This document shows, in pieces, positions 42,760 through 63,700 of a stretch of DNA of 64,000 bases. Both the position numbers and the translations under genes were made by a program. This DNA is from Hyperoplus lanceolatus (lineage: Eukaryota > Chordata > Actinopteri > Uranoscopiformes > Ammodytidae), in contig CM049397.1 of NCBI GenBank assembly GCA_026929865.2, positions 28,539,198-28,603,197 of the forward strand. The letters run 5' to 3'. The notes beneath the pieces are model-generated. The model made no database searches. It was not told where the DNA came from and worked only from the letters and a program-made list of their open reading frames with translations. Numbering within the stretch: the stretch's first letter is position 1; each line of letters begins with the position of its first letter.

Positions 42760-42912
42760 ATTGTATATGTTTATCTTTTCATCAAGCACTCAAAATTGAA
42801 ACTTGTAGTTTGATGACTAAATACCTGCAGTGAGCAGTTGATCAGTTTAACACTGTGTCACAATCAATCAATCCTCCCCAGAGGTCATGTTTTGCCGAAA
42901 CATGCTGAGTTA

Positions 42913-43983
42913 CAGTTTTTCTCAGTCGCTTTGGTGCTTTTCTCACATCACTATTAACATTTGCACAGCAGTTAGTGCATTTCTCAAAACAATTAGTGCA
43001 AACTGCAAAACCTAGTGGATAACCTGCAAAAGTATGTCACTTGCTCAAAATGGATAGTCTATTCCTCAAAAGCAAGTATTCATGTCAATGAAACTGACAG
43101 TGTCATCAAAATGAGAAGTTTTGACACCATCGTTTATGAACAAGATAGTCAAATGGCTTTGTCATGTTTTCATTATGACAGTTTATTCTCTCAGTGTTTT
43201 CCAATGCAAAAAAAAGGTCAGAACTCGGTGACACTACCTGAAAATGCTCAAGACAGCACTAAACACTACTTGTACAGCCATTTGAAAACTACAGTAAAGT
43301 TACACATTGCTGTAGTTAGGGGAGTAAGTGAGTACAAGACACTGAATACGTATGTTTCACATTTTTACTGTATATGCTCTTTGCAATTCTACAGCATTGT
43401 GCAAAAGAAAAATACACTTCAGTCACTTATTTAGATCAAACATAAAAAAACACCCTTTTGGTAGAGCTGTGCACAAATGTGAACAATATAACAGGACATA
43501 TTGTAACTGAACACATATAGGTAAATCATTCTGGCACATCCAGACGTTCCTGTCTGTCTGGCCACATATTTTCATCTACATCACAACGGATATTATCCCT
43601 TGCAATGCAGCGAGGAAAGTATCTATGATAAAGAAAAGGTATAAAATTTGCTTGACAGAATTTGATAACTAGTTCAACAATGTTGTATGTAATGACTCAA
43701 GCAATGAAATGAAGACTATTAGTTTTATTGGGAACGACTATTCAGCATCCATAAGTATAGTTCATTTTGACTGACATGACATAAGCAAATGACAATGTTA
43801 TAAAACAGCAGAGAATTGTATGAAAGCAACTGATACATGTCCAAAAGCATTTGCAATTTGTTCAGAGGAAGGAGAAATTGCTATGATGTGCTCAAATGAC
43901 TAAATGTTGTGGAGGTTGAACTAATAGTTATGATAATTTTCATTCTGATCTAAGAAAAGCACCAAAGCAACTGAGAACAACTG
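42913..43983. mobile_element. Mariner-like non-autonomous element, copy 1
   Basis: Bounded by TA on each side. The inverted ends begin cagtttttctcagtcgcttt and pair over about 35 bp with the other end. It is 1071 bp and nearly identical to the copy at 51707-52775. The 139-residue open frame inside shows no transposase motif and is broken in the other copy, so I treat it as non-coding. Confidence 0.85.
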
Positions 43984-44184
43984 TAAATCCTTACCAATCC
44001 ACTGGCTCATTTCACATACATTTGCATCTCTGATCCTCTGGGTCCCAAACCCCACAACCCCAATGACTACATGTCTGACAAGGGCAGCGTAATGACTGCT
44101 CAAGTACGATGGGCCTCAACACACACTGACAACTTGATCTCATCCCTGCAAATGACTCCATTTACATGCCACATTTCCCTCCTG

Positions 44185-48811: not shown

Positions 48812-50930
48812 ACAACAATTTAAAACATTCAGATCAATTGAATGAAATAAATAATAGCCTAATTAAAACAGTTACAAGTGTGGAGGGGTTGATTCAAAAT
48901 AATACTTTTAAATTGGTTAACAGATATGAGTGTATTTATTTTAATTGTATGTTGTAGGCTGTTCCAGGAGTCAGGGGCACTATAGCTAAAAGCGGTTTTA
49001 CCAAGCTCAGACCGGACATAGGGGACATATAACATGATCATGTCAGTTGAGCGGGTTTGATAAAGCCCATCTGAAATAAGCAGCATTTCTGTCAGATAGA
49101 GTGGTAGCTTTCCAGTCAGAGCTTTATATATAAAAATATGCCAATGTGCATCCGTCTCTCCTTAAGGGAGGACCACCCAACCTTTTCATATAAAACACAA
49201 TGGTGTGTATCATAAGCATCTCCTGTAATGAATCTCAAAGCAGAGTGAAATACAGAGTCAAGGAGTTTAAGGCATGAACGAGATGCATGCCGATAAACCA
49301 CATCACCGTAATCAAGGACAGACATAAAAACTGCCTCAATAATCCTTTTCCTACTAAACAACGGGAAGGTAGCTTTATTCCTATAAAAATATCCAATCTT
49401 TTGTCGCAGACGACAGACAAGATTTTTATGTGAAATGTAAAAGAGAGTTTTCATCTAGCCAGATACCAAGGTACTTATATTCAGAGACTTTTCGATCAAA
49501 GAACCGTTTACAGCATAGATGCATGCACTATTGTCTAAATCTCTAGCCCTAGAGAACAACATGAATTTAGTTTTAGACTGGTTAAGGACAAGTTTAAGTG
49601 AAATAAGAGCATTCTGAAGAGCATTAAAGGACAGTTGCAGGTTCTCAATAGCTGACTTTGCAGAGTCAGCAACACAATACAAGATGGTGTCATCAGCATA
49701 TAAATGGATTTGACAACCACTGACAAGAGACACAATATCATTGATGTAGATGGTGAATAGTACCGGACCTAAAATTGAACCTTGTGGAACACCTTTGGTT
49801 ATGGGTAAGAAACCAGATTGGATATTACCTAGCTTCACACATTGAGATCGGTCAGAAAGGTAATTACTGAACCAGCTACACGCATTTTCACTAAAACCAA
49901 TGTTAGCCAATTTATCTAATAGTAAAGAATGGTCTACTGTATCAAAGGCTTTACTGAGATCAATAAAGAGGGCAGCACAGTGATTACTATTATCTAAGGC
50001 AGAGACAATATTGTTAGTAACCAGAGTGATGGCAGAGATAGTGCTATGGTTAGTTCTAAAACCAGATTGGTGAACAGATAAAATAGTGTGACTTGAGAGA
50101 AATGTTTTCAATTGGTAATTAATAAGGGATTCCAGCGTTTTTGACAGACATGACAGTCTGGATATTGGCCTATAGTTATTAGGGTCAGTTTTTTCTCCCG
50201 CTTTATACAAAGGAAGGACACAAGCTGATTTCCAGATCCTTGGAATAACGCAGGAAGATATAGAAAGGTTAAAAATGAGGGTAATACACTCTGCAATTAC
50301 AGGGGCTGAGAGTTGGAGAAAGAATGGGTCTAGGTTGTCTTCTCCAGTGGATTTCTTGGGGTCAATGCTTAAGAGAGCATCAAGAACCATACTGGAGGAC
50401 ACAGGAATAATAGAAAACAGAGGAACATCATTGGCGGTAGGCATATGAACCTGTTCAAGGGGTAGCTGGTTGTCTGCTAGAGAAGATCTAGAGTTGTCCT
50501 CTTTGAAGATATGGCCAGCAACATTAAAATGTCTATTAAAACCAGCGCAGATCTCGGTTTGATCGGTAATAAAACTATCATCAAATTTAACCTGAATTGG
50601 AATAGAAGCTGATGTAGCAGAGCTATTTTTGTTGGTTTTAACCACCTTCCAGAATTTTGCTGGGTTAGAATAGGTGTCTGTGATCAATTTTAAATAGTAG
50701 TCAGATACATTCTTCCTCACTAAGGATGTACATTTATTTCTTAAGGCTCTGAATGCAGCCCAATGTGAGGCGTTATTAGTACGTCTAGCAAGAGACCAGG
50801 CTTTGTTTCTAGTTCGGAGAAGAGATGTAAGTTCTGGACTAACCCAAGGACTGGATCTATCCTTAACTCTATACTTCTTAAAGGGGGCATGTGTATTTCT
50901 TCAACTTCATTACATTTATCTGACTGCTAT
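48660..50930 (-). mobile_element. 5'-truncated LINE with broken reverse transcriptase
   Basis: The minus-strand frame 50720-49455 encodes a non-LTR reverse transcriptase: SKAFDTVDHSLL, KGVPQGSILGPVLF and the catalytic LYADDTILY box. The C-terminal part continues in other frames at 49454-49116 and 49086-48859, so at least two frameshifts break it near 49450-49500. The 3' UTR (gtcacccctcaattgatc region) and a (CAAA)n tail lie at 48660-48740. A short (CA)n tract sits at 48781-48808. No apurinic endonuclease domain remains. The L2/Rex-like clade is a guess from the RT style. Confidence 0.88.
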
Positions 50931-51534: not shown

Positions 51535-53549
51535 AGGGGTATACTACGAAGCGAGATTAAGGGCTGAGCGAGGTCTGTTGAGTCTCAAACCAGAGTTTTC
51601 AGTATCACGAAAGGTGGCTCTCTTTCTACCTGGCTAGATCACCGTGGTAACAGAGGCTGCACGGCTAACCTGCCCTGACCAGTTTTTGTTGCAGAGTTTG
51701 AGCTTACAGTTTTTCTCAGTCGCTTTGGTGCTTTTCTCACATCACTATTAACATTTGCACAGCAGTTAGTGCATTTCTCAAAACAATTAGTGCAAACTGC
51801 AAAACCTAGTGGATAACCTGCAAAAGTACGTCACTTGCTCAAAATGGATAGTCTATTCCTCAAAAGCAAGTATTCATGTCAATGAAACTGCCAGTATCAT
51901 CAAAATGAGAAGTCTTAACACCACGTTTATGAACAAGATAGTCAAATGGCTTTGTCATGTTTTCATTATGACAGTTTATTCTCTCAGTGTTTTCCAATGC
52001 AAAAAAAGGTCAGAACTCGGTGACACTACCTGAAAATGCTCAAGACAGCACTATACACTACTTGTACAGCCATTTGAAAACTACAGTAAAGTTACACATT
52101 GCTGTAGTTAGGGGAGTAAGTGAGTACAAGACACTGAATTCGTATGTTTCACATTTTTACTGTATATGCTCTTTGCAATTCTACAGCATTGTGCAAAAGA
52201 AAAATACACTTCAGTCACTATTAGAACAAACATAAAAAACACCCTTTTGGTAGAGCTGTGCACAAATGTGAACAATATAACAGGACATATTGTAACTGAA
52301 CATATATAGGTAAATCATTCTGGCACATCCAGACGTTCTTGTCTGTCTGGCCACATATTTTCATCTACATCACAACGGATATTATCCCTTGCAATGCAGC
52401 GAGGAAAGTATCTATGATAAAGAAAAGGTATAACATTTGCTTGGCAGAATTTGATAACTAGTTCAACAATTTTGTATGTAATGACTCAAGCAATGAAATG
52501 AAGACTATTAGTTTTATTGGGAATGACTATTCAGCATCAATAAGTATAGTTCATTTTGACTGACATGACATAAGCAAATGACAATGTTATAAAACAGCAG
52601 AGAATTGTATGAAAGCAACTGATACATGTCCAAAAGCCTATGCAATTTGTTCAGAGGAAGGAGAAATTGCTACTATGATGTGCTCAAATGACTAAATGTT
52701 GCGAAGGTTGAACTAATAGTTATGAGAATTTTCATTCTGATCTGAGAAAAGCACCAAAGCGACTGAGAAAAACTGTAAATTCGGCTCTTAGAGCGCTGGC
52801 CTTTAAGGAAACTACACATTTTGAAATCCCGCGGAGGCGCGGACCTGACTATATTGTCTAAGCGATACTTCTCACTGAGTAAACTAGTTAAATCAGTAGG
52901 CTAAACTTATTGATCAGTAAGTTAATGAACGAAACGAAGCCGTGACATAAGGCTTACAGCAGAGTGAACTGTCACATCGCGCTGGGGCTTTTTGCCACAT
53001 GCAGTTATTGATGCAGAAAATGTTAAATAGCCTAGACCTACTGTATGCAGCACCACTCTATGCTCTCACCTCAAATGGTTATACCTGGCGATCTACACAC
53101 ACTGGCTCTTAATGAAGCGTTCTATAAAATCACAGGTTGCAACATTATTTCACTGTAGGCTTCTTTCTTTTCATCAGTAGTGATTACAGTTGGGACGTGA
53201 CAGGTGACAGCTGTCACAGTTCGGACATCGTTGCAGACTCGCAGGTTAAGCTTATCACAGTAGATTCATATTTGGCCGAAAAATAAAGACTATAACCTAC
53301 ATGTTTTTTTTAATGTAGGCCTATTGGTATTTGTAAGATTCAAATAAAAGGATAGTCTAAATCAAAATTACATTCGCCCCCTCTCATGGGGACGCGCACA
53401 GAGCCTGAAGTTGAAACCCTCGTTCAACATAAGAGGTTGATAACTGCCTTCGTGATACCGGTTAGCTTTGAGCGAGGGTATGTGTTATGTTGAACCAGAT
53501 CAAGAAAAGAGAGCCGGGCTCTGTTGAGTTTGCTTCGTAGTATACCCCT
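51535..53549. mobile_element. TIR element A (interrupted by a mariner-like insertion)
   Basis: Ends aggggtatactacgaagc and gcttcgtagtatacccct are perfect inverted repeats. Removing the 1069-bp insertion and one TA leaves a core of about 945 bp that is also present, inverted and interrupted, as element B. No transposase frame. No clear target duplication, so the superfamily is left open. Confidence 0.8.
51707..52775. mobile_element. Mariner-like non-autonomous element, copy 2
   Basis: Same element as 42913-43983, here inserted in element A with TA at 51705-51706 and 52776-52777. The uninterrupted host sequence exists at about 56919-56945 and 58787-58813 (agccgaatttaagctcaaac), which fixes the ends exactly. 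Confidence 0.93.
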
Positions 53550-54079: not shown

Positions 54080-54383
54080 AGGGGTATACTACAAAGCAAA
54101 CTCAACAGAGCCCGGCTCTCTTTTTTTCATCTGGTTCAACATAACACATACCCTCGCTCAGAGCTAACCGGTATCACAAAGGCAGTTATCAACCTCTTAT
54201 GTTGAACGAGGGTTTCGGCTTCAGGCTCTGTGCGCGTCCCCATGAGAGGGGGCGTTTGGCCGTCATTTGACTCTGCTTCCGCACAGACTGGACTGATCTT
54301 GTGCTGCTAACTTTACACAAACGGACTGATTGCGAGCAGCTGACTTCACTGACTTCACTCAAGAGGAAGAGTTTGTCAGTCTG

Positions 54384-55414
54384 AGGGTGTATTCACACTG
54401 GGAAAGTCCGCTAGTTCACTTGCTTTGGTCCAGACCAAATAGAGTTTTGATTTTTTTGTTTGGTGTGGTCCACTTTCATATTGACCCCTTTTGCAAGTGA
54501 ACCAGCATTACGAAGCAAAAACACGTGATCAGTTGAGGTCATTCATTCATTGGACAGCATTCTGAGAGAAACAGCTTCCTCTTAGTTAAGACTTCAGGAA
54601 GTATATAATTGATATAATATGGGGTTAAAAATAATAAAATGGCCTACATATAACCTATAAATAAAGATGAAAAACATAAAATTATTGTTGTTTCATATGG
54701 TTATAATACTAGTCCTGTGTTCATGCCACGTTATGTGGCTTTTAGACCTACAATGTGAAATTTTATTTTTACTTATTGTTGGTGCTTGACGCGTGTCCAC
54801 GAGAAGAATAGGCTCAAGCTGACACTCATCTGATTAAGCTGTGTATCAGCACTCAGCTGTCTGTTCAGCTCAAACTGACACGGGGACAGTATTGACGGTC
54901 CGTAGGTACATGGGAAGCAAAATAAAAACACACACTTCTTGCGCAGCGTGAACCTGTTGGCACTGTGCGGAGACTCACACCTCTCTTTCATCTGATCGCT
55001 GAACACATTCAGCATGTTGTTAGGTGTCTTCTCGATCAAATGTAATATATTGTTCTGGTCTCCCGGTCAAACCACAACTTATCAGTCCTAACAATGGCGA
55101 CAACAAACACTTTCCCATAATGTGAAGCTAACTGGCTCGATTTATTAAATAAGAAAAGAAAGAAAGGCAAAGTGCCTCCTGCATTGTGGGGCGGATCGAG
55201 TCCGGACAAATTCACACCACAAACGAACTGCAGCAGAGTGCGTTTGGAAACCCGAAACTACCTCTTCAGCTGGGTCTCGGAGGTTTGTTTAGTCCGCACC
55301 CGAGGGAATTGCTGTATTCACACCTGCCTGAAAGATGCGCAACCGTCACATAGTCAGAATTGCAGTCTAAATGCGTTTGAACCGCACTAAACACGGCATG
55401 TGTGAATACACCCT
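54384..55414. mobile_element. Non-autonomous TIR element nested in B
   Basis: Inverted ends agggtgtattcacac and gtgtgaatacaccct lie 1.03 kb apart. The interior has frames without domains. No target duplication could be fixed. Confidence 0.72.
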
Positions 55415-55519
55415 GACTGATCACAGAACAGCAGCAAACAGAGAGCCGAAAAAAAACCTCATACTGCAAATAAGGAGAGAGTGGAATGTTGTCAGAAAAT
55501 TGGGCTACTGAATTGATTA

Positions 55520-55567
55520 ATTTATTTTACAGATCGCTCTCACAGTGAGAACGATCTGTAAAATAAA
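55520..55567. repeat. Near-perfect 47-nt hairpin
   Basis: TTTATTTTACAGATCG on the left pairs with CGATCTGTAAAATAAA on the right, and the pairing continues through ctctcac / gtgagaa with one mismatch and a 1-2 nt loop. Confidence 0.85.
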
Positions 55568-55646
55568 TGACATTATAAAGCAATTAAAGGTTGAACTCGG
55601 ATTTAAACAGTACACCATTTAGCCTAGTTGATAATCCTACACTTAA

Positions 55647-56228
55647 AGAGGACCTATGATGCTTTTTGACTTTTATGACCTATAAACGTTGTTATGATGA
55701 TTCATAGTCATGCTTAACCATACTAAATGATCAAATAATGACTTACATGCATTTCGACATATTCCCTGCTGACCGTCTGGGGTGTCTGTGCAGAGCACTA
55801 AACACTATTCTAGCCAGTCGAGAAGTCACGTCTTCAAAGCGGTCTACCCTTTCATAATTTGTGACGTCGCATAAAACTTTGTGACGTCTCCACGCGGATG
55901 TTTCCATGTATGGTAATGCTGTCACTTCCCTGTTCGCGTCTGCCTCGCACCCTTATAGGTCCATGCTCGCGCTTCCCGCCACTGAAAGTGTTCCGGAAGG
56001 AAGGTAACCAATCACAACGGAGTGGGGTTTGCAGGAGGGGGGGGAGGGGAGCGGAGATGGCCGAAGCACACACACTCAAGTGTTGAAAGAATGTGCTGGA
56101 TCGCCAAAATAAGAGAAAGAGCTTCCCGAAAATCTACATAGTTTTTTGTGATGTGATTCGTGTCAGGTTGCTCTATAGCAGTGTAAAACAAGAAATTAAG
56201 ACCAGAAAAGTAGCATAATAGGTCCTCT
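55647..56228. mobile_element. TTAA-flanked MITE, copy 1
   Basis: Ends agaggacctatgatgc and gcataataggtcctct are inverted repeats, flanked by TTAA at 55643-55646 and 56229-56232. Both flanks belong to the DNA inserted in element B. At 582 bp it is the likely parental left copy of the tandem array. Confidence 0.88.
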
Positions 56229-57100
56229 TTAAGAATCTGATTTAAGTCTGACACTGTCCCCTAATGAATAGCATAGCCTATATGGAAAATCACGTTAGTT
56301 TTAGGCCACATCAAAATTAATACAATTTTGATTTTGAGTTAGGCTAATAGGCCTTTATTTGCATCTTATAAATACCATTAAAATAAATAGCCTAGATACA
56401 AAACCTGTAGGCTAGTCTGTATTTTCCGGACAAATATGAATCTACTGTGAGAAGCTTAACCTGCGAGTCTGCAGCGATGTCCGAACTGTGATAGCTGTCA
56501 CGTCACAACTGTAATCGCTACTGATGAAAAGAAAGAAGCCCACAGTGAAATAATGTTGCAACCTGTGATTTTATAGAACGCTTCATTAAGAGCCAGTGTG
56601 TGTAGATCGCCAGGTAAAATCATTTGAGGTGAGAGCATAGAGTGGTGCTGCATACAGTAGGTCTAGGCTATTTTACATTTTCTGCATCAATAACTGTATG
56701 CATGTGGCAAAAAGCCACAGCGCGATGTTACAGGTCACTCTAATGTAGGCTAAGCCTTATGTCACGGCTTTGTTTCGTTCATTAACTTACTGATCAATAA
56801 GTTTACTGATTTAACTAGTTTACTCAGTGAGAAGTATCGCTCAGACAATATAGTCAGGTCCGCGCCTCCGCAGGATTTCAAAATGTGTAGTTTCCTTAAA
56901 GGGCAGCGCTCTAAGAGCCGAATTTAAGCTCAAACTCTGGAACAATAACTGGTCTGGGCAGGTTAGCCGTGCAGCCTCTGTTACCACGGTGATCTAGCCA
57001 GGTAGAAAGAGAGCCACCTTTCGTGATACTGAAAACTCTGGCTTTAGACCGCTTTAGACTCAACAGACCTCGCTCAGCCCTTAATCTCGCTTCGTAGTAT

Positions 57101-57510
57101 ATGAATGAATGAACACTTTATTCCGGACTCAATGTTCCATATAAAAGACAATACAAATACATGACAACACAAATTAAAATACATACAAGCATCGATTCCA
57201 ATGTTTCCACAACCCAGAGGAGAACCTTGTATCACTCTGTTTAGTGTCAGTCAGTGCAGTTATTACTTTGTTTTTTGACTCTAGGAGTCGACACATACAT
57301 TTATACATTAAATTCCTCAACACAGCATGAAAGGTGGGGACATTACTAGTCACAAACAAAGAGCTAGCACTAGTCCATCTAGGAAGCTTAAGGAGGATCC
57401 TAAACGCATCGTTATACGCTACCTGTAACTTTTTCAGTTTTGCTGTTCTATATTTACACCAGAGGTGAGCTGTGTAAAATGGAGTACAGTAGGCTCTGAA
57501 GAGACTAACT
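57101..57510 (-). mobile_element. LINE 3' fragment, duplicated copy
   Basis: Minus-strand 3' end of the second LINE family, with an (ATTC)n tail at 57101. It ends at MITE2, not at the RT region, because it is a tandem-duplicate piece. The intact continuation is at 58969-60778. Confidence 0.8.
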
Positions 57511-57514
57511 TTAA

Positions 57515-58096
57515 AGAGGACCTATGATGCTTTTTGACTTTTATGACCTATAAACGTTGTTATGATGATTCATAGTCATGCTTAACCATACTAAATTATC
57601 AAATAATGACTTACATGCATTTCGACATATTCCCTGCTGACCGTCTGGGGTGTCTGTGCAGAGCACTAAACACTATTCTAGCCAGTCGAGAAGTCACGTC
57701 TTCAAAGCGGTCTACCCTTTCATAATTTGTGACGTCGCATAAAACTTTGTGACGTCTCCACGCGGATGTTTCCATGTATGGTAATGCTGTCACTTCCCTG
57801 TTCGCGTCTGCCTCGCGCCCTTATAGGTCCATGCTCGCGCTTCCCGCCACTGAAAGTGTTCCGGAAGGAAGGTAACCAATCACAACGGAGTGGGGTTTGC
57901 AGGAGGGGGGGGAGGGGAGCGGAGATGGCCGAAGCACACACACTCAAGTGTTGAAAGAATGTGCTGGATCGCCAAAATAAGAGAAAGAGCTTCCCGAAAA
58001 TCTACATAGTTTTTTGTGATGTGATTCGTGTCAGGTTGCTCTATAGCAGTGTAAAACAAGAAATTAAGACCAGAAAAGTAGCATAATAGGTCCTCT
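57515..58096. mobile_element. TTAA-flanked MITE, copy 2 (recombinant)
   Basis: The left flank is LINE, as for copy 3. The right flank is element-B DNA, as for copy 1. Base 57597 is T as in copy 3 (copy 1 has G), while the right part (gttgaaagaatg, no 22-bp insertion) matches copy 1. Confidence 0.9.
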
Positions 58097-58968
58097 TTAA
58101 GAATCTGATTTAAGTCTGACACTGTCCCCTAATGAATAGCATAGCCTATATGGAAAATCACGTTAGTTTTAGGCCACATCAAAATTAATACAATTTTGAT
58201 TTTGAGTTAGGCTAATAGCCCTTTATTTGCATCTTATAAATACCATTAAAATAAATAGCCTAGATACAAAACCTGTAGGCTAGTCTGTATTTTCCGGACA
58301 AATATGAATCTACTGTGAGAAGCTTAACCTGCGAGTCTGCAGCGATGTCCGAACTGTGATAGCTGTCACGTCACAACTGTAATCGCTACTGATGAAAAGA
58401 AAGAAGCCCACAGTGAAATAATGTTGCAACCTGTGATTTTATAGAACGCTTCATTAAGAGCCAGTGTGTGTAGATCGCCAGGTAAAATCATTTGAGGTGA
58501 GAGCATAGAGTGGTGCTGCATACAGTAGGTCTAGGCTATTTTACATTTTCTGCATCAATAACTGTATGCATGTGGCAAAAAGCCACAGCGCGATGTTACA
58601 GGTCACTCTAATGTAGGCTAAGCCTTATGTCACGGCTTTGTTTCGTTCATTAACTTACTGATCAATAAGTTTACTGATTTAACTAGTTTACTCAGTGAGA
58701 AGTATCGCTCAGACAATATAGTCAGGTCCGCGCCTCCGCAGGATTTCAAAATGTGTAGTTTCCTTAAAGGGCAGCGCTCTAAGAGCCGAATTTAAGCTCA
58801 AACTCTGGAACAATAACTGGTCTGGGCAGGTTAGCCGTGCAGCCTCTGTTACCACGGTGATCTAGCCAGGTAGAAAGAGAGCCACCTTTCGTGATACTGA
58901 AAACTCTGGCTTTAGACCGCTTTAGACTCAACAGACCTCGCTCAGCCCTTAATCTCGCTTCGTAGTAT

Positions 58969-60778
58969 ATGAATGAATGAACACTTTATTCCGGACTCAA
59001 CGTTCCATATAAAAGACAATACAAATACATGACAACACAAATTAAAATACATACAAGCATCGATTCCAATGTTTCCACAACCCAGAGGAGAACCTTGTAT
59101 CACTCTGTTTAGTGTCAGTCAGTGCAGTTATTACTTTGTTTTTTGACTCTAGGAGTCGACACATAAATTTATACATTAAATTCCTCAACACAGCATGAAA
59201 GTTGGGGACATTACTAGTCACAAACAAAGAGCTAGCACTAGTCCATCTAGGAAGCTTAAGGAGGATCCTAAACGCATCGTTATACGCTGCCTGTAACTTT
59301 TTCAGTTTTGCTGTTCTATATTTACACCAGAGGTGAGCTGTGTAAAATGGAGTACAGTAGGCTCTGAAGAGACTAACTTTAAAGAGGACCTATGATGCTT
59401 TTTGACTTTTATGACCTATAAACGTTGTTATGATGATTCATAGTCATGCTTAACCATACTAAATTATCAAATAATGACTTACATGCATTTCGACATATTC
59501 CCTGCTGACCGTCTGGGGTGTCTGTGCAGAGCACTAAACACTATTCTAGCCAGTCGAGAAGTCACGTCTTCAAAGCGGTCTACCCTTTCATAATTTGTGA
59601 CGTCGCATAAAACTTTGTGACGTCTCCACGCGGATGTTTCCATGTATGGTAATGCTGTCACTTCCCTGTTCGCGTCTGCCTCGCACCCTTATAGGTCCAT
59701 GCTCGCGCTTCCCGCCACTGAAAGTGTTCCGGAAGGAAGGTAACCAATCACAACGGAGTGGGGTTTGCAGGAGGGGGGGGGGGGGGAGCGGAGATGGCCG
59801 AAGCACAGGCGGAGGGAGCCGAAGCACACACACTCAAGTGTTGACAGGATGTGCTGGATCGCCAAAATAAGAGAAAGAGCTTCCCGAAAATCTACATAGT
59901 TTTTTGTGATGTGATTCGTGTCAGGTTGCTCTATAGCAGTGTAAAACAAGAAATTAAGACCAGAAAAGTAGCATAATAGGTCCTCTTTAACATCATCCGT
60001 GCACATATGAAATTTGTGTGCCAACATATTGGCCTGTGCATAAAGCTTACAGCACTGGCGCTGGACATCATCATCATCACATAGATCATCAGTGATGATG
60101 TGACCTAAATACCGTACCTTCTTAACCACCTCTAGAGTACGGTCAGATAGCAAAAATGAAGGAAACGTTTGCTTTTGATCCTCCTTAGTTTTAGCAATCA
60201 TAATAACGCTCTTCTTAGGATTGAACTTGATGTCATATTGAACTCCGTAGCTAGAGCACACTTTAAGCAGTTGCTGTAGCCCAGCACTATATGGAGACAT
60301 GATGACCAAATCATCAGCGTAAATTAGGTGGTTGATAAGACTGTCTCCCACCATACAACCAGTCTTACATTAAGCTTCTTAGAAAGATCATCCATATACA
60401 CATTGAAGAAGACAGGTGACAAGATGCCACCCTGTCTCACCCCATTGGTGACTTGAAAGGGTGCAGATAAACTACTGCCCCATCTAATTTGCATGGTCTG
60501 TTGTGTGTACCAGAACTGCAAAATCCTTATCAGGTAAGGTGGAACTCCTCGCTCTTGTAGTTTGGCAAACATCTTACCATGGTTAATCCTATCAAAGGCT
60601 TTTGATGCATCTAAGAAGCACATAAACATGGTAGAGTTATGTCGTCTGTATTTACTTATGACTTCTTTAAGTGCATATATACAATGATCTGTTCCATGTT
60701 TACTTTTAAAACCAAACTGGTTGTCAGTGGTTTCCACATACTCACTAATCCTATCCAAAATAATTATTTCTACCCCTT
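58969..60778 (-). mobile_element. Second LINE family, 5'-truncated, split by MITE3
   Basis: The minus-strand frames 60758-60324 and 60354-59990 encode a non-LTR reverse transcriptase: FLDASKAFDRINH, GVRQGGILSPVFFNVYMDD and HLIYADDLVI. A one-base loss near 60365 shifts the frame between the RQGG and YADD motifs. MITE3 interrupts it at 59383-59986, and the 3' end with the (ATTC)n tail is at 58969. It is 5'-truncated at about 60778 and not functional. Confidence 0.87.
59383..59986. mobile_element. TTAA-flanked MITE, copy 3
   Basis: Flanked by TTAA on both sides (59379-59382 and 59987-59990) and by LINE sequence on both sides, so this insertion is in its original place. It is 22 bp longer than the others through an extra agcacaggcggagggagccg block and a longer G run near 59773. 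Confidence 0.9.
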
Positions 60779-63700
60779 TCTGTGTTTATTTTTTTTACGA
60801 AACGTTGGGTTGATGGATTAGTCCACTGGTAAGAAATGAACTGCCTGCAATTTTTATAATCATTATTCTATGAAGCAGGTGCACACCTTAAGTTGTGTAG
60901 AATTAGAAACTTTACTTTGATTTGTTTAAGGACCATAACCATCAAAAAATGAGTGCAAGTAATGAAGTGTGCGGGATTCCTTTGGTCATTCACTTCTCAA
61001 GTTATGTGTCGATGTGCTTTTCTCCTTTTTATATGATTTCAAAATGACAACGTTTGGGTTGTTTTCGACTGGTTGGACACATCATTTCAAGAAATCACAT
61101 TGGGTCCATAGCTGAAACACTGAGCTGTAGTTCACTTTGGAGACGACCAAACAGCCTCCAAATAATGTCTGATGAAACTTAACGGGGAAACATCTGCCAG
61201 GGAGAAAGAACTGTCCAATTTGCCAGTAAGACATTTCCGATTGCAGTATTAATTGAGATAGAAAAAACATCCCCAGAATTCTTTATCTTATTTTCTTTGA
61301 CTGAACAGTCTACACTCAAGGTCCACTTACTTGCTTATTTCAGGGGTTTCAAAAGGTATCACAGTCCACATAAGAGGATGAGATGTTCAAAGTCTCCATT
61401 ATAGTGAGCACTTGGCAAACCTTTATACACAGTCAACAAGTTGAGCTTGACCTATCCTTTTTGAACTGATGAAGATTTGATGATGTGATCAATACAAGAG
61501 AATAAAAATTGCTTCAAGGTCAAGAGTGAACTGTCAAGCTATATCCTCCAACTCTATTATTGCAGCTGTAATGATAGTTGACATAATTTCAGAAATACCT
61601 GAGAAAAAAAAACTATAACTACTCAAGTCCTCGCCCTTTACTAAGAACAATAGCATGGACACTCATTTAAATATTTCTGAGTCTTGTTGCCATGTAATCT
61701 AACAAACAAGCAATCGGCAGCCAAGATTCTGAGATTAATGAGGAGGGTTAAAAATGTCTTCTTTATTCCATTCTTAGCTGGGACTACAATATATCGCAGG
61801 AGGACGTCTATTCAGACCTGGACGTATCCGATTTACAGCAACCCCCCTTTGGCATTTTTCACAGAGGATCTGAGGTCATTTCCTGTTTGTTACCCCCGAC
61901 GCTATCATCCTGAATGGCCCCAGCAGCTGTTTTCCAAGCATCCCGGAAGTCCTTTCTTAATTTGTTATGCCTCAATCACCTCCTCTCCTTCTTTTTCTTC
62001 TAATTCCCAAAGAGAACCCAGCACAAAGCGAGAGGGCGCTTATCAGTCACGGACTTTAAAGATGTTTATTTACAGATCATCAGGGAGCTTGGGAAGGGGC
62101 CTTTAAAGAAAGCCGCCCGCTGGTCCTCAAACCCAGAGATTTGGGTCCCTCGGTGCGGCGTCAGAGGCCACGCTCTCGTTGCCAAGTTCCAATGGTGTCG
62201 ACAGCCGCTCGCAGGGGGCTTCAAAGAGTGTAACGTGGCTGCTGCAGATGTGTGACTGCTTACAGGCTCCTAATCTGTTCAGAGGAGGGGAGGATCCAAT
62301 CCGGATCTTTTTCATCCCGCCGCGCAGAGACAGGGCTTTTTCCAAGAGGCCTGCTGTAATACAGTGCATTAGTGAGATAAAGGCCTCTCCTCACGGCTGT
62401 CTCATGCTGACAGACTCTTGGAAAAAAGCGTCTCGGGGTGGATCTGGGGAGGATCCTTTCCGTCTCTGCCGCTGTATCTCTTCCACAGGTTTCTTTCTTT
62501 GCAGCCTCACACCTCCCCTCAAACCCCTTGATCCTAGCCTCCTTTTTTTAGCCACAAATCTCTTTTATCGTTGTCTCCGTTCATAACACTGTGTACACTT
62601 CACATAGAAAAAAAAGCCCCAGCCATTTTTCCAATTTTTCTCAGACACACGAATAACTAAACATGGTGAAACCTCACTTTTCCTTCAAACGTGTCCGTAT
62701 TTACGTTGGAAGGTTTTGAACAGGTTTTTTTTCACCACAATCATTCCTCCTGTTTATACTGGACATCGAAGAAATCTCCTCTTAATGCAGTTTCAATGTA
62801 AGCGATAGGGGACAGAATCCACAGACCTCGTTCCATGCAAATATACATTGCACATGGTATTTCAGGGTCAAAAGAAAAGGGATTCATTCTTGTATAGACA
62901 CAGAATAGAAAAAATAAAATGAATAAGACTGCTTGAACTATTTTGCAGGATCAATTTTCTCAGGGGACAAAATCTTGGTTTAGTTTATTTCACTCATTTT
63001 CCAACTTATGGACAATAGACTTAGTCATGACTTAGATAAACATTAAAACAAATAAAATTCAGCTCCCTTTTAATTTTACAGAGCAATGCAGGAAGGTCAC
63101 AGAAACCAAGTAGGCTATATACATGCCTTTCTTTCGTCTACCCAAACATCTAAAACACATTTCATTTAGCACTCTATTTGTTAATCATCTTCTGTTTACA
63201 TACATTTAAAGAAAACAAAATATTGTCTGTATTACACATTTTGAACCATTCCACAAAATTCCTCCATATACTGAAACACATCTTTGTTGTGAATTTGTAC
63301 AGCTCTCTCTTTGTGAGAAAAGTTCCCCTCACAGTTCATACTGACATTTTCTTACTTAAACAACCTCTGGATACAGACTGGTAACATACCAGATCTCTTT
63401 TCCATTGGACAAAATCCTGAGGTTACAAAGTTGAGCTTATCCAATGAGAATCAGTGTTGGGTCTGTTGGGTTTGTATTCATAGAGTGAGGAAGACAGAGT
63501 GATGGATTAGACAGGCAGCAGAAGCAGTCAGGACCCACAGTGGACAGCAGACCAGGGAGGAAGGGAAGTAGTGGTAGATGAAGGGAGGGAGGCCGGGTCC
63601 CAGACGTCACATCTGCCACCACTACTCCCCAGGGGCCTCAGGGGCATGGGAACCTCCATGGACTCCACCTAACCCCCCCTCTCCTCCTCCATGCTGCGGC

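Follow-up and report, generated by a model that had tools for sequence, protein, structure and literature searches.

A MITE at the junction of an apparent tandem duplication in Hyperoplus lanceolatus: probable unequal recombination between two TTAA-flanked elements

A 64,000-bp stretch of the Hyperoplus lanceolatus genome (contig CM049397.1, positions 28,539,198 to 28,603,197; hereafter the window, in which all coordinates are given) contains three copies of a miniature inverted-repeat transposable element (MITE). The copies, MITE1, MITE2 and MITE3, are direct repeats flanked by TTAA, and both start-to-start distances are exactly 1868 bp. They are separated by two spacers, each composed of the right part of a DNA transposon-like element (element B) and the 3′ end of a long interspersed nuclear element (LINE; Table 1). 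When the terminal inverted repeat (TIR) pattern of the MITE was sought with up to three mismatches, six occurrences were found in the window against an expectation of 0.03, and all six lie at the ends of MITE1-3. Among the open reading frames (ORFs) listed, the only ones of at least 110 codons within the two units are two pieces of the LINE.

Table 1. Features of the array and its surroundings, in window coordinates.
Feature	Position	Strand	Length	Remarks
MITE1	55643-56232	+	590 bp with both TTAAs	Within element B2
Spacer 1	56233-57510	+	1278 bp	Element B (right part) as far as about 57101, then LINE 3′ end from about 57102
MITE2 (junction MITE)	57511-58100	+	590 bp with both TTAAs	Left flank LINE, right flank element B; proposed crossover product
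Spacer 2	58101-59378	+	1278 bp	Second copy of the element B right part and LINE 3′ end
MITE3	59379-59990	+	612 bp with both TTAAs	In the LINE reading frame; has a 21-bp imperfect tandem copy and an extra G
Most likely crossover interval	57511-57912	+		Narrows to 57597-57912 if base 57597 was inherited from MITE3
LINE fragment split by MITE3	58970-60785	-		Reverse transcriptase frame with YADD; frame change within 60324-60369
Element B2	54081 to about 57101	+		TIR-bounded, DNA transposon-like; contains element D and MITE1 and adjoins the LINE tail on the right
Element D	54385-55413			Ends GGGTGTATTCACAC; inside B2, left of MITE1
Element B1	51536-53548			Inverted relative to B2; terminal GGGGTATAC motifs
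Second LINE	about 49455-50900	-		481-codon open stretch with an RVT_1 match

Between the units beginning at MITE1 and MITE2 (55643-57510 and 57511-59378) there are 7 substitutions in 1868 positions and no indels, a divergence of 0.37% (95% interval 0.15-0.77%); five of these substitutions separate the two spacers. The 40 bp to the left of MITE2 are identical to the left flank of MITE3, in the 3′ part of the LINE, and the 40 bp to its right are identical to the right flank of MITE1, in element B. MITE1 and MITE3 themselves have unlike flanks on both sides, with TTAA at every end: the left part of element B2 lies to the left of MITE1 and the remainder of the LINE to the right of MITE3. Since MITE2 joins the left flank of MITE3 to the right flank of MITE1, the breakpoint lies inside the MITE, and the array, as assembled, is a direct duplication with its breakpoints in a pair of like-oriented copies of the same repeat. 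The junction is placed by this exchange of flanks and not by the internal base pattern. A preliminary description of the locus had reported the spacing, the flanks of MITE2 and three diagnostic bases within the MITEs (see below), and all of these were reproduced.

The array is best explained by unequal homologous recombination between MITE1 and MITE3, to which we assign a probability of roughly two in three. The LINE would first have come to adjoin the end of element B, and a TTAA-targeting MITE would then have inserted twice, as two similar copies in the same orientation and 1868 bp apart, MITE1 in element B and MITE3 in the LINE. Following misalignment of chromatids, MITE3 on one would have recombined homologously with MITE1 on the other. 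One product would hold the 1868-bp unit twice in direct orientation, and its junction element, MITE2, would consist of the left part of MITE3 and the right part of MITE1; the reciprocal product would retain a single MITE and lose the spacer. Each copy would later have acquired a few private substitutions. In this account the geometry, the flanks and the low divergence are observed, whereas the insertion order, the presence of the duplication in the genome itself, its origin by homologous recombination and not by a template switch, and the precise crossover point are inferred. The size and direct orientation of the duplication resemble those of the transposon-mediated duplications described in extracts of a human survey (PMC9675761). 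The preliminary description had presented the array as exactly the product of unequal crossing-over between MITE1 and MITE3; this is still the best reading, by virtue of the junction flanks, but the word 'exactly' is too strong for a left side that is marked by one base.

The three MITEs were compared column by column. At column 87 MITE1 alone differs, with G at 55729 where MITE2 and MITE3 have T (57597 and 59465, respectively), and this is the one difference between MITE1 and MITE3 in the left 402 columns. From column 403 onwards MITE3 alone differs, and MITE1 and MITE3, which share the same orientation, end in an identical 142-bp suffix. The feature previously described as a 22-bp insertion does comprise 22 extra bases in MITE3; these represent two events: an imperfect tandem copy of 21 bp (59808-59828) and, separately, an additional G. 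Once both are removed, MITE1 and MITE3 differ only at MITE1 columns 87, 403, 445 and 448, which indicates that the other mismatches beside the gap are effects of aligner placement. Neighbouring 20-mers within MITE3 differ at 3 of 20 positions, and because this far exceeds the 0.37% between units, MITE3 was probably unlike MITE1 before the duplication. The right side of MITE2 is therefore informative. Here MITE2 is the same as MITE1 at every MITE1/MITE3 difference, and the absence of the 21-bp copy suggests that the right part of MITE2 descends from MITE1; this copy is a stronger right-hand mark than are the substitutions of MITE3. Two other origins of MITE2 were considered and rejected, namely a third independent insertion, which would not have duplicated the spacers, and an entire copy of MITE3, since MITE2 has none of the right-hand differences of MITE3.

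The surroundings of the two proposed parent elements bear on the order of insertion. If MITE3 is removed and its flanks are joined at one TTAA, a single frame runs open through 239 codons, of which 127 precede the join and 112 follow it; in the other two frames the open stretch across the join is 1 and 64 codons long. This supports the earlier placement of MITE3 in a LINE on both sides, and also the view that the LINE once existed without MITE3, which would be a later insertion. An RVT_1 match (residues 2-81 of 228 queried) is located on the right LINE arm and does not span the join. The LINE piece to the left of MITE2 is supported as a duplicate of the one to the left of MITE3. As a separate observation, the 410-bp LINE parts of the two units (57101-57510 and 58969-59378) differ by four substitutions, three of which alter an amino acid of the LINE frame. 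MITE1, which had likewise been assigned to element B on both sides, does lie within the TIR-bounded element B2. However, a search of the related element B1 for an empty site gave none, because the part of B2 from about 54255 to 56330, with MITE1 and the flanks immediately on either side of it, has no counterpart in B1.

A number of results weigh against the recombination model and have to be set beside the flank evidence. The evidence within MITE2 for a chimera comprises one base on the left and, on the right, three substitutions together with two length changes, so that MITE3 ancestry is marked by base 57597 only; the order of the internal sites would arise by luck with a chance of between 1 in 4 and 1 in 6. 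The G at 55729 could be a later mutation private to MITE1; at the post-duplication rate the left 402 bp would have acquired one or more such changes with a probability of 0.53. At the between-unit rate the probability of at least three right-hand substitutions of MITE3 in 195 bp is 0.038, and that of at least two, with the G-run omitted, is 0.17; in view of these values the right-hand substitutions of MITE3 alone are not decisively above later private change. At column 307 MITE2 carries a private G (57817) that is present in neither proposed parent, MITE1 and MITE3 both having A; this difference was absent from the preliminary description. The 410-bp LINE part holds four of the seven differences between units (binomial P = 0.046). 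The long frames of the two LINE arms meet in phase, which luck would bring about one time in three, and a search for relatives of this LINE in a viral contig collection matched one stretch, for which tblastn gave no confirmation.

The position of the crossover was assessed with a crude model that takes a uniform prior for position and yields ranges that depend on which right-hand events are counted. Under this model the probability is 0.67-0.93 for the interval 57597-57912, 0.06-0.10 for positions to the left of 57597 and 0.01-0.23 for positions to the right of 57912. The likelihood ratio is only 1.8-4.1 against a MITE2 derived entirely from MITE1, and 2.8-83 against one derived entirely from MITE3. 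The previously proposed interval of 57597 to about 57900 is favoured by this model, but it may extend to the left TTAA, and the crossover could lie anywhere from there to about 57912. The base-by-base alignment is compatible with the predicted change from MITE3-like to MITE1-like bases in MITE2, but thinly so, with a single base on the left; overall, the internal pattern agrees with the model of unequal recombination without proving it. Independently of these estimates, the private G at 57817 creates a CpG within the possible crossover interval.

Three other explanations compete with homologous recombination. The array might be an assembly artefact in which each haplotype carries one unit (MITE1, spacer, MITE3) and the two haplotype spacers have been laid end to end and joined at the MITE. 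We consider this unlikely, but the sequence it predicts is the same as that predicted by recombination, a MITE with the left flank of MITE3 and the right flank of MITE1, and the 7 differences in 1868 bp fit an ordinary allelic level, 0.37% being within ordinary fish heterozygosity. False duplications, mainly of divergent haplotypes, made up 4-16% of the sequence in earlier assemblies of three vertebrates, according to an extract of PMC9516828, and they too consist of two slightly different copies of one stretch. On the other hand, the window contains no N, and the best 80 matches from its comparison with itself include no other long, near-identical tandem copy. Moreover, at about 4.3 kb the array is well within the length of modern long reads, with the proviso that the assembly method used here may differ.

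It is decidedly improbable, in our estimation, that the duplication arose by a template switch during replication repair, whether break-induced or microhomology-mediated, in which synthesis left MITE3 and resumed in MITE1 without a reciprocal crossover. Microhomology-mediated break-induced replication is named in the human survey extracts as a source of rearrangements at transposon junctions, duplications among them (PMC9675761), and the internal data permit a switch over a wide interval. MITE2 is nevertheless a full 590 bp, joined at matching positions with no inserted bases, as plain homologous recombination would leave it; as an argument this full-length junction MITE is weak, since a switch within long homology would look alike. 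A duplication made by transposase is very improbable. In this case the ends of two MITEs would have been cut and rejoined on the sister chromatid, with the MITE ends as breakpoints. Paired elements are known to undergo alternative transposition in maize, and if base 55729 is private to MITE1, the join may lie at the left TTAA of MITE2 (the 0.06-0.10 given above for any point to the left of 57597). A join at the right end, by contrast, is disfavoured because MITE2 has none of the right-hand differences of MITE3, and no transposase match was found in the 6 of 39 listed window ORFs that were scanned.

If unequal recombination between MITE1 and MITE3 did take place, both parents and the product of an exchange between two 0.6-kb non-autonomous DNA transposons are visible at one place. 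The array could be typed by polymerase chain reaction, and it could serve to ask how short, and how similar, elements must be before they can cause segmental duplications in a genome of teleost type. In the human survey extracts 493 transposon-mediated rearrangements are resolved, comprising deletions, duplications and inversions and including chimeric Alus; the elements are in direct orientation in 91% of the deletions and duplications, and a length of 1,085 bp is given for the duplications (PMC9675761). The Alu-type events likewise involve direct elements of the same family about 1-2 kb apart, with a breakpoint inside them and one composite element as the result, whereas the present case concerns a DNA-transposon MITE in a teleost, known from a single assembly, rather than human Alu and LINE-1 elements (PMC9675761). 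Other extracts list non-allelic homologous recombination as one mechanism (PMC6499320) and describe how two nearby elements in the same orientation can yield a reciprocal deletion and duplication (PMC8232201). Literature searches on duplications caused by MITEs or other transposons brought up reviews and, for the most part, work on plants, fungi, insects, livestock and satellites, which does not mean that no comparable case has been published. As transposon-mediated recombination is already established, with chimeric elements documented genome-wide in humans (PMC9675761), the array is one more case; it illustrates an ordinary process neatly and leaves knowledge of the mechanism unchanged.

The preliminary description had also held that such substrates are rarely caught with all three parts preserved. 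In the human survey the starting call set comprised 4,997 deletions against 239 duplications, and the duplications and inversions were judged insufficient in number for one of the significance tests; on these grounds duplications seem to be the less common product there. This lends the claim of rarity some support, but it has to be tempered by the 493 resolved rearrangements and the chimeric Alus among them (extracts of PMC9675761). Exchange between nearby same-orientation elements is discussed as a route to satellites in an extract of PMC12628747. A far more speculative proposal, to which we attach little credence, is that the array is a newborn and still polymorphic tandem repeat, in which breaks due to MITE mobility triggered the exchange and the three direct MITEs let the unit expand or contract; it would then represent an observable first step from a mobile element to a satellite array.

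With respect to the family of the MITE, its ends are AGAGGACCTATGATGC and AGAGGACCTATTATGC, with a TTAA target site duplication, as in Kolobok elements. Both ends start with AG, which is consistent with the RR terminal rule of Kolobok and is the start of the ten full-length XKol copies from Xenopus in the extract of PMC6004289. Of 16 terminal bases, 12 match the ends of XKol A5 from that source, compared with 3-8 of 16 for the other ten reference ends. When the left end was shuffled 200000 times with AG held fixed, 1068 of the shuffled sequences reached 12/16 against any of the 12 reference ends. In contrast, the terminal AGGRR motif of the Xenopus T2-MITE subgroup (PMC6004289, in extract) is absent, the ends here being AGAGG. 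Non-autonomous piggyBac elements share the TTAA target site duplication, and the AGAGG start sets the present MITE apart from them. The ends of piggyBac elements usually start with a run of C. Kolobok is a better lead than piggyBac, as a lead only, and the ORF scan that found no transposase match applies here also. The terminal pattern gave no stretches in viral and prokaryote contig collections, a result that, given the nature of those collections, is uninformative on the family.

Beyond the array, elements B1 and B2 align in four pieces, of 179 bp (96.1% identity), 47 bp (80.9%), 541 bp (91.7%) and 177 bp (92.7%). The right TIR of B2 is without its last four bases (GGGG on the other strand) at the point where the LINE tail starts. 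About 2 kb present in B2 is missing from B1, and element D and MITE1 form part of it. Over 122 residues the second LINE shares only 27% identity with the one at the array, which makes it too distant to serve as a guide, and it probably belongs to another family. Three of the scanned ORFs gave Pfam matches (M16 peptidase domain, Exo_endo_phos2 and beta/gamma crystallin), which, together with repeat features typical of fish, suggest a vertebrate and most likely teleost source; a tRNA scan of the window returned no genes. Tandem Repeats Finder, with a longest period of 500 that puts the 1868-bp unit out of range, reported the 21-bp pair in MITE3. B1 and B2, being inverted and about 0.5 kb apart, with the TIR GGGGTATACTAC[G/A]AAGC, could pair as a large hairpin. 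A further element with ends ACAGTTTTTCTCAGTCGCTTTGGTGC, which we take to be of a Tc1/mariner-type non-autonomous kind, is nested in B1 at a TA (about 51706-52776), and a 97% identical copy of it lies at 42906-43988.

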